This document shows, one piece after another, positions 54,434 through 55,606 of a stretch of 64,000 nt of DNA. Below the pieces are notes generated by a model. It searched no databases. It saw only the letters and a list, made by a program, of their open reading frames with translations, and had not been told where the DNA came from. Within the stretch, counting starts at the first letter, position 1. Each line of letters begins with the position of its first letter. Location of the stretch: contig NZ_AUPZ01000013.1 in the NCBI RefSeq assembly GCF_000445475.1, positions 1 through 64,000 on the forward strand. The letters run 5' to 3'. The position numbers and the translations under genes are program-made. Source of the DNA: Sulfurimonas hongkongensis (GTDB taxonomy: Bacteria; Campylobacterota; Campylobacteria; Campylobacterales; Sulfurimonadaceae).

Positions 54434-54892
54434 ATGAATAAATTTATGAAGATAGCTTATGATGAAGCAGTTGATGGAATGTTAAAAAACGAAGGTGGGC
54501 CTTTTGGCGCGGTTATTGTAAAAAATGATAAAGTCATCTCAAAAGCACATAACTGCGTGTTATCGACCAATGATCCAACCGCTCACGCAGAGATAAATGC
54601 CATAAGAGAGGCAAGTGAGGTATTAGGCACATTTGAGCTTAATGAATGCACGCTCTACACAAGTTGCAAACCTTGCCCTATGTGTTTAGGAGCGATCTTT
54701 TGGGCAAGGATTCCTATTGTTTATTATGGAGCAAATGAAGAAGATGCAACTTATGGTGGCTTTGATGATAAACGCTTTTATGAGATGATAAAAGGCAAAA
54801 ACTCAGATGTTAAACTAATAGAGTTAGATGCCAAACAAAATGCAAAACTATTTGATATGTGGCTTAAAAAAAGCGATAGAAAGATCTATTAA
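54434..54892 (+). CDS. Nucleobase/nucleoside deaminase (guanine deaminase-like)
   Basis: A 152-residue cytidine-deaminase-fold enzyme. Zinc ligands and catalytic Glu are in THAEINAIRE-like AHAEINAIREA and SCKPCPMCLGAIFWAR. The C-terminal extension with YYGANEEDATYGGFDDKRFYEMI resembles Bacillus-type guanine deaminase more than tRNA adenosine deaminase TadA. It would deaminate free purine or pyrimidine bases for salvage. Single gene; the upstream operator may affect it as well as the divergent permease. Confidence 0.83.
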   Translation: MNKFMKIAYDEAVDGMLKNEGGPFGAVIVKNDKVISKAHNCVLSTNDPTAHAEINAIREASEVLGTFELNECTLYTSCKPCPMCLGAIFWARIPIVYYGANEEDATYGGFDDKRFYEMIKGKNSDVKLIELDAKQNAKLFDMWLKKSDRKIY

Positions 54893-54900
54893 TAAAGATA

Positions 54901-55016
54901 AATTGAACCCTCTGAACAATTCAATTAGATCCTGAATCAAGTTCAGGATGACGTCCTAACCGTCATTCCGTGCTTGACACGGAATCTAGTTTATATATTA
55001 ATCAGAGGGTTCAATT
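54901..55016. repeat. 116-bp nested palindromic (REPIN/MITE-like) element
   Basis: Perfect 15-bp terminal inverted repeats, AATTGAACCCTCTGA at 54901-54915 and TCAGAGGGTTCAATT at 55002-55016. Inside are two 30-bp hairpin modules in opposite orientation, each with TAGAT on one side, ATGACG on the other and the loop TCAAG, but with different stems (ATCCTGAA/TTCAGGAT; ATTCCGTG/CACGGAAT). No coding capacity. It lies between the deaminase and hemJ, whose 3' ends face each other. Confidence 0.85.
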
Positions 55017-55057
55017 ATAATGAGAGCCTTTGTAAGTTGTAAAATACAAAAGCTGCT

Positions 55058-55606
55058 TTACAATTTTTTTAACTCTTCTTCTACTACTTTAAGGTTTGGT
55101 TCTTTTGCATGTTTTAATAGTACATAAACAATTACAGCAAAAAGTATTACCATAAAGCCAGTAAAGATAACTGGCACATCTTTTAACACAACATAAGTTA
55201 CTATTAAGATCGCAAGAAGCGTTGGAAACTCATTGTAAGCGCGAAAAAACTTTCCATTTTTTGTGCAAGTTCGAGTGAGTAGTTGCTTACGATAATGATT
55301 CATAGACAGATCATACCAAACAAGAAGCAACACCGCTGCTATCTTTGCATAAGCCCAAACTCCCATATCAAAAAGATGCGGATTCAGAGTAAACATTACA
55401 ACTCCACTAATAAGAGTCGCTATCATTGCTGGCATATCAATGTACTTGTAAAGTTTATACTCTTGAATCTCAACAATCTTTATATAATCAGGCTTATCCA
55501 TATGTTCTACATGATAAACAAAAAGTCTTGGCAGATAGAAAAGCCCCGCCATCCATGACATAAATGCCATAATATGAAAAATCAAAATATACTGATAATA
55601 TTCCAT
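55058..55606 (-). CDS. hemJ: HemJ-type protoporphyrinogen oxidase
   Basis: A 182-residue inner-membrane protein of the HemJ (UPF0093) family, the oxidase for protoporphyrinogen IX in many bacteria without HemG or HemY. Several transmembrane helices; the family motif with the essential His is ILIFHIMAFMSWMAGLFYLP, and RAYNEFPTLLAI is the second conserved block with Arg and Asn. The start follows a GGGGG ribosome-binding site. Length slightly longer than the 140-150 residues common in alphaproteobacteria. Confidence 0.87.
   Translation of the reverse strand: MEYYQYILIFHIMAFMSWMAGLFYLPRLFVYHVEHMDKPDYIKIVEIQEYKLYKYIDMPAMIATLISGVVMFTLNPHLFDMGVWAYAKIAAVLLLVWYDLSMNHYRKQLLTRTCTKNGKFFRAYNEFPTLLAILIVTYVVLKDVPVIFTGFMVILFAVIVYVLLKHAKEPNLKVVEEELKKL

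Follow-up and report, generated by a model that had tools for sequence, protein, structure and literature searches.

A nested palindrome of Sulfurimonas hongkongensis is very probably an IS5-type miniature transposon with a CGTC-REP heterodimer as its cargo

What is the nested palindrome at positions 54901-55016 of a 64,000-nucleotide stretch of Sulfurimonas hongkongensis DNA, and what kind of enzyme spread it? The stretch, called the window below, is the start of contig NZ_AUPZ01000013.1 (C13) in an assembly of 2.30 Mb and 28 contigs that we code G000; the other G codes denote congeners. An initial annotation, made from the letters alone, described perfect 15-bp terminal repeats enclosing two inverted hairpin modules with compensatory stem changes. 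It likened the whole to REPINs, pairs of repetitive extragenic palindromes (REPs) moved by Y1 transposases (REP-associated tyrosine transposases, RAYTs), and saw in the outer repeats a layer resembling a miniature inverted-repeat transposable element (MITE). We conclude that the 116-bp feature is very likely a MITE proper, i.e. a 108-bp non-autonomous transposon flanked by duplicated AATT, of the insertion sequence (IS) family IS5 type and moved in trans, with a heterodimer of CGTC-tagged REPs (CGTC-REPs) as cargo.

The 116 bp consist of the 108-bp unit and an AATT on either side. The perfect 15-bp inverted repeats (AATTGAACCCTCTGA; 54901-54915 on the forward and 55002-55016 on the reverse strand) are present as annotated, but the outermost AATT of each is best read as a target-site duplication (TSD), since the flank variants of other copies agree as direct repeats and not at mirror positions; the perfect terminal inverted repeat (TIR) proper is then 11 bp (GAACCCTCTGA). 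The two hairpin modules are inverted to each other, 27 nt long and 9 nt apart, and both keep the conserved segments that had been pointed out (GTCAT..CTTGA..ATCTA). Within the window the module pattern is not significant, as 13 of 100 shuffles reach its 2 matches at up to three mismatches. Over the whole genome, at up to two mismatches, it has 94 matches against 0 for the reversed pattern, in line with the annotated REP-like mobile repeat of paired modules, and the outer repeat has 41 against 6. The modules fall into 64 clusters in this genome, with relatives in congeners; 38 clusters have the B-side arm, 26 the A-side arm and 19 both. A full copy is symmetric, running from AATT through a 24-nt arm (GAACCCTCTGATTAATTTATAAAC), hairpin B, a spacer, hairpin A and a second 24-nt arm ending in CAGAGCACTC to the other AATT, and the inverted unit ends GA...CTCTGA are common to dozens of dispersed copies. 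The idea of a stem-loop inserted into a pre-existing terminator was rejected, because the outer repeat keeps nearly the same distance from the module wherever it recurs in the genome. The exact string of arm plus module gave, among named genomes, 12 stretches, all in one Sulfurimonas metagenome-assembled genome, STCSWMC_194. The compact-dimer pattern, which requires GTCATTCC and a gap of 3-12 nt, matched only the own genome (19) and one congener (1) among 200 genomes drawn from the phylum, an absence elsewhere that holds for this form of the dimer.

The flanks of the unit carry the signature of transposition. The 4 bp on either side are the same in 48 of the 64 full-length copies, which come from six genomes (mean 22.6 and maximum 31 in 5,000 permutations of the right flank), and in 15 of the 31 copies in which one flank or both differ from AATT (mean 2.9, maximum 9), in permutations that treat related copies as independent. 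At other lengths the same test yields 0 for 2, 3 and 5-8 nt and 13 for a single nucleotide. By genome, the identical flanks number 14/18 in S. hongkongensis, 6/14 in STCSWMC_194, 24/27 in G075, 2/3 in G078 and 1/1 in both G095 and G032, and the matching pairs other than AATT are TATT (5 copies), GATT (3), AATC (3), AATA (2) and AAAT (2). DDE transposases generate target duplications such as these 4 bp. Two insertions in G075 are nested in other copies, one in a right arm (L188:449-557) and one in a left arm (L190:424-531), with AATT duplicated; once the unit and one AATT are taken away, what remains is an arm resembling the others of that genome. With such exact empty sites, the mobile unit is therefore the whole arm-to-arm element, and the MITE-like outer layer of the initial annotation stands, the unit ending at the outer repeats. 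G075 also has a tandem of two complete copies with 8 bp between them (L160, contig C58); one is flanked by a duplicated AAAT, the other by a duplicated AATT.

REPINs mobilised by RAYTs are not known to duplicate their target on insertion, and their unit ends at the REPs. The proposal that the REP pair itself is the unit, excised as a single strand by a Y1 transposase with the outer repeats incidental, is accordingly very improbable for this element; the 4-bp duplication at the outer arms, the nested whole-unit insertions and the lack of Y1 linkage speak against a RAYT as the mover of the armed unit. It draws its support from the inverted REP pairs with covarying stems, from the Y1 proteins of several module-rich congeners (G060, G062, G075, G087, G095, G100 and G101), from the absence of TIRs beyond control around G101 dimers (see below) and from a Y1 gene close to modules in S. 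hongkongensis. This gene (L031:1462-2847; G000:C21, about 8.5-9.9 kb) begins some 0.7 kb away from modules, a single open reading frame (ORF) separating them, and lies upstream of a frame that by eye resembles an ABC transporter. Its product, the single Y1 match of the genome, has a C-terminal SapC domain (197.8 bits) and a Y1 domain near the cut-off of 23 bits (22.2 in one scan, 25.2 in another). Where other Y1 proteins have the HxH form of the HUH motif it reads PHFFEF, and by eye the motif looks degraded. Several congeners likewise have reading frames of 462-477 aa, about as long as this one, that match Y1. Among 80 genomes of the genus, counting the own one, a Y1 match is present in 35 and an exact module in 20; G078 and G090 are rich in modules and lack any Y1 match. 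We retrieved 29 Y1 loci from congeners with flanks of up to 1.5 kb; 9 of them come from genomes that contain an exact module, and a single one (L135) has a module in its flanks by a moderately strict motif. The tag, moreover, is CGTC and not the GTAG of RAYT-linked REPs, and in excerpts of the 2013 survey of CGTC-REPs no such REP is reported next to a gene for a tyrosine transposase (Di Nocera, De Gregorio, Rocco; PMC3733652).

Both window modules fit the CGTC-tagged REP class by structure (PMC3733652): the tag end reads CGTCAT, the stem opens with A-T and then T-A, the 5-nt loop is CTTGA and the tail is short. The compensatory change read from the two window stems extends to the family. The alignment covers 61 distinct modules of several genomes, three of the 64 sequences having been dropped as run-on arrays, and some modules stem from loci retrieved with a pattern in which one pair is set to C and G. 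The search motif fixes GTCAT, TTGA and T24-C25 in this alignment and leaves the other columns informative; 94.9% of the stem cells are paired against 79.2% after shuffling, both-side changes number 104 against 26.4 and the covariation score is 0.603 against 0.277, with 0 of 500 shuffles reaching any of these values. Both-side change affects 6 of the eight stem pairs against 4.2 in shuffles, a count reached by 37 of 500, and the pair 5-23 is U-A in 59 modules and U-G in 2. This supports the annotated selection for structure, which might act on a DNA cruciform or single-stranded DNA, or on an RNA hairpin of the 3' untranslated region.

Such selection also brings up the possibility that we are dealing solely with a host structural element, a terminator or mRNA-stability hairpin copied by recombination and not a transposon. 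The region 54895-55022 folds at -50.2 kcal/mol (z -8.84) on one strand and -50.3 (z -8.17) on the other, with 0 of 200 shuffles as good, and one terminator-like match lies within the element, at module B. The copies are mostly outside long ORFs: in a count of 50 clusters of the own genome, which omits three near contig ends and those without a module within two mismatches, 26 are between tandem, 12 between convergent and 7 between divergent ORFs, 4 lie within an ORF and 1 is undetermined. Nevertheless, target duplications at precise ends and nested insertions speak against this explanation, a hairpin function would not account for the dispersal, and Rfam yields no match here that attains a family's gathering score (the single match, outside the element, has 10.7 bits against 105, E 0.89). 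We regard it as extremely improbable.

The two hairpins of a copy differ in stem class wherever both could be classified, with 0 homodimers in 54 classified elements out of 64 (10 unclassifiable ones dropped). In the own genome 17 classified copies pair CCGTG with CTGAA; G075 has three stem classes, mixed in every possible combination (11, 6 and 2 copies), and pairing at random, in a calculation that treats related copies as independent and hence is not a strict test, would lead one to expect 6.5 homodimers of 19; and none of the 14 head-to-head dimers read in G101 is a homodimer. Such a preference has been noted before, head-to-head heterodimers being described as predominant in CGTC-REP families 2 and 3 in the excerpted survey (PMC3733652), which also has the idea that would explain it here, namely that identical partner stems would form a long perfect palindrome and be unstable. 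On contig C20 of G062 (L232), arms of a similar kind, again flanked by AATT, enclose hairpins of another class (GATTGC.../...GCAATGAC), which suggests exchange of hairpins within one arm family.

Between hairpins B and A, many copies have an array of tandem units whose first part resembles GTCATCCTGAA, which is the 5' half of hairpin A; the filler after it is much alike inside one copy and different from copy to copy. Of 29 B-A pairs measured, 19 have 1-8 array units (at up to two mismatches) and 10, including the window copy, have none; the spacers range from 9 to 176 nt, 19 of the 29 lying within 1 nt of 9+21n. The array may have arisen by slippage at the half-hairpin. With its 9-nt spacer the window copy is of the shortest kind. 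Its A-side arm is atypical for the genome, being 21 nt long with GAACCCTCTGAACAAT in place of the commonest form GAGTGCTCTGAACAAT, and it is because of this form that the terminal repeats of the window copy look perfect. Several copies of the own genome (e.g. G000:C2:351999 and C4:118468) are of a long variant in which the loop of hairpin A apparently has an insert with the recurring string ACTCTAAAGAAACATTTTTGCATAGCAAAAAGCGATTCTCTTGTTTTGA.

No ORF of at least 80 aa lies within the 108-bp unit, which thus has no transposase of its own; a candidate parent was found in a congener. The arm pattern, searched in 48 congeners (among them G062, also in an earlier search of 13 genomes), has 14 matches in one genome, G091, and 13 of these are an identical 16-mer. 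Thirteen of the 14 are ends of one IS, and the fourteenth (L346) belongs to a short element with similar ends, an interior unrelated by eye and flanks AATT/AATA. The IS has the TIR GAACCCTCTGAACAA and an intact reading frame for a 326-aa transposase of the IS5 family (NCBIfam NF033581, 260 bits against a cut-off of 140; PF01609 and PF05598 above cut-off). Eleven copies could be read to both ends; 8 are 1228 bp long, two 1258 and one 1227, and 9 have identical 4-bp flanks (AATT in eight, AGTT in one), while one further copy is interrupted by another insertion. G013 has one related IS, its transposase 70% identical, with 15 nt matching at the left end, 12 nt at the right and AATT on both sides, and G073 has a 250-bp deletion derivative (L242) with transposase remnants and flanks AATT/AATC. 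Non-autonomous derivatives exist, namely L242 and L346. A reading frame ending in AAAAAGATACAACGCAGTATAA stands beside such arms both in L346 and in S. hongkongensis (L048; G000:C3:61961-62493), possibly as a recurrent neighbour or a carried gene.

The window arm at 54905-54920 equals the end of the G091 IS in 16 of 16 bases, 11 of these already being fixed by the search pattern, and the AATT duplication is also in common. That share of fixed positions is one of several points that weigh against an IS5-type MITE. S. hongkongensis has no match to the G091-type transposase at E 0.001 and no protein with PF01609 (DDE_Tnp_1). G091 and G013 for their part hold 0 exact modules; because no genome was seen with both, the pairing of IS and MITE rests on common ends and a common target and not on co-occurrence. 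Sixteen of the 64 full-length copies have no identical flanks, STCSWMC_194 having them in only 6 of 14, and the 33 copies flanked by AATT on both sides prove little by themselves because AATT is palindromic and AT-rich. The empty sites that the annotation asked for were found twice as nested sites in G075, but no orthologous one for the window copy, in the two congener deaminase loci read (L083, L084), which lack the element and also any match to the gene downstream of it. Lastly, 19 of the 64 own clusters have neither arm, and in 14 G101 dimers, from a sample of 30 of the 80 module places, the mean inverted-repeat score of the flanks is 7.36 against 7.35 for flanks swapped between dimers; so the inner hairpin pair also spreads or persists without the MITE vehicle.

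Inward-facing end pairs 1-3 kb apart, as an autonomous copy would have them, are likewise absent among the matches listed in the search of 13 genomes, G060 excepted, G062 being covered by the later search. The exact 14-nt arm motif was not found at transposase loci of 29-37% identity in G078, G075 and G102 (L235-L237, L248, L256, L260), nor at any of the 30 DDE_Tnp_1 loci examined, out of 38 matches. A helper transposase in the same genome is usual for an IS5-type MITE and not strictly required. A repeated IS could also be absent from the assembly, which is split into 28 contigs and in several cases breaks off close to this element. The own contigs C1, C3, C15 and C17 have copies or arms no more than about 350 bases from an end, so that other copies, or a helper IS, may have escaped assembly. 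We thus favor a scenario in which an IS5-family transposase would have moved the unit in trans, this helper having since been lost from the genome or left out of its assembly; the cargo would be the head-to-head CGTC-REP heterodimer, often with the half-hairpin tandem array between the partners.

The arm-less pairs bear on an extension compatible with the IS5-type MITE, in which a CGTC-REP heterodimer with its own mobility was captured by the MITE, the two layers spreading in different species. G101, with 80 exact modules, 0 exact matches to the arm pattern and no TIR beyond control in its 14 dimers, is in its favor, as are the mixed pairings of three stem classes within one arm family in G075 and the different hairpin class within similar arms and AATT in G062. 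Set against these are that no enzyme for the inner layer was found, that arm-less copies could be decayed MITEs, and that the G101 sample is partial, its two best dimers (scores 15 and 11) being alike by eye and perhaps of another TIR family. We take such two-level nesting as a serious possibility, somewhat short of an even one. More tentative still is the idea that CGTC-REP heterodimers are parasites of parasites, with a slow mobility of their own and repeatedly boarding DDE-type MITEs, and with the heterodimer rule enforced by selection against palindromes or by the copying mechanism.

At the locus itself (Table 1), the unit lies between the 3' ends of two convergent genes and would act, if at all, on both. 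Elsewhere in the genome, one copy without its B-side arm (L027:1428-1640; G000:C9:35013) stands amid palindromic GTTCCCACGC repeats, another repeat of S. hongkongensis.

Table 1. Parts of the element and flanking genes, in window coordinates
Feature	Position	Strand	Basis or remark
Target-site duplication, left copy, AATT	54901..54904	.	register and flank statistics
A-side arm, terminal inverted repeat GAACCCTCTGAACAATT...	54905..54925	+	first 16 nt equal the end of the G091 IS5-family element
Hairpin module A, CGTC-REP, GTCATCCTGAACTTGATTCAGGATCTA, CTGAA stem class	54926..54952	-	pattern matches, stem alignment
Spacer, 9 nt	54953..54961	.	same place holds 1-8 GTCATCCTGAA-like units in 19 of 28 other B-A pairs (up to two mismatches)
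Hairpin module B, CGTC-REP, GTCATTCCGTGCTTGACACGGAATCTA, CCGTG stem class	54962..54988	+	pattern matches, stem alignment
B-side arm, terminal inverted repeat GAACCCTCTGATTAATATATAAAC	54989..55012	-	sequence read, copy comparison
Target-site duplication, right copy, AATT	55013..55016	.	register and flank statistics
Flanking gene, 152-aa deaminase-like ORF (named by eye)	54434..54892	+	stops 8 nt ahead of element
Convergent flanking gene, 182-aa membrane-protein-like ORF (named by eye)	55058..55606	-	end 41 nt past element

We file the hairpins with the CGTC-REP class by structure and the unit as one that works like an IS5-type MITE; no account of this element was found among the papers listed in searches of the open-licence literature. 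In this family a vehicle for CGTC-REPs becomes visible: an IS5-type MITE that leaves a clean 4-bp duplication, with empty sites at nested insertions and with a candidate for the parent IS. The spread of CGTC-REPs, so far unexplained, can thereby be tested with one transposase and one donor plasmid. If REP pairs indeed board MITEs, this would explain the spread of a widespread repeat class without a dedicated transposase, and it suggests that the outer palindromes around other REP dimers be re-read as transposon ends. BOX elements of Streptococcus pneumoniae (boxA-boxBn-boxC) have, like the present family, fixed end modules and a variable number of internal units; they are not known to have REP hairpins or IS5 ends.

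The papers on the other systems are cited from excerpts, to which the following likenesses and differences are limited. CGTC-REPs occur in five phyla, and their lack of a dedicated transposase was already noted in the 2013 survey (PMC3733652). They share with the present hairpins the CGTC tag, the A-T/T-A first pairs, the 5-nt loop, the short tail and the head-to-head heterodimers; the tail here, however, is mostly CTA and there CCA, and arrays of half-hairpins of about 21 nt often stand between the partners here. CGTC-1 dimers of H. neapolitanus lie inside 41-bp palindromes, but the outer palindromes are tied in those excerpts neither to an IS nor to target duplications (PMC3733652). The two inverted REP hairpins recall the replicative unit of REPINs, yet these are thought to be moved by a REP-linked Y1 enzyme (PMC3116915), whereas here there are TIRs and a TSD. 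QMITE2 of Coxiella burnetii is likewise a MITE that has TIRs and direct repeats; its shorter copies had gone on record as REPs, and by analogy it offers a precedent for REPs as truncated MITEs. Its direct repeats differ in being 7-9 bp, and the parent IS is not named in the excerpts (PMC5896051). The nearest analogue is BrickBuilt of Porphyromonas gingivalis, a non-coding, intergenic MITE with IS5-family-like TIRs and an internal tandem array of 23-nt units (PMC4596501). Its direct repeats are of inconsistent length and the excerpts describe no CGTC-REP pair, whereas the Sulfurimonas element has a uniform 4-bp TSD and array units that resemble half a REP hairpin.
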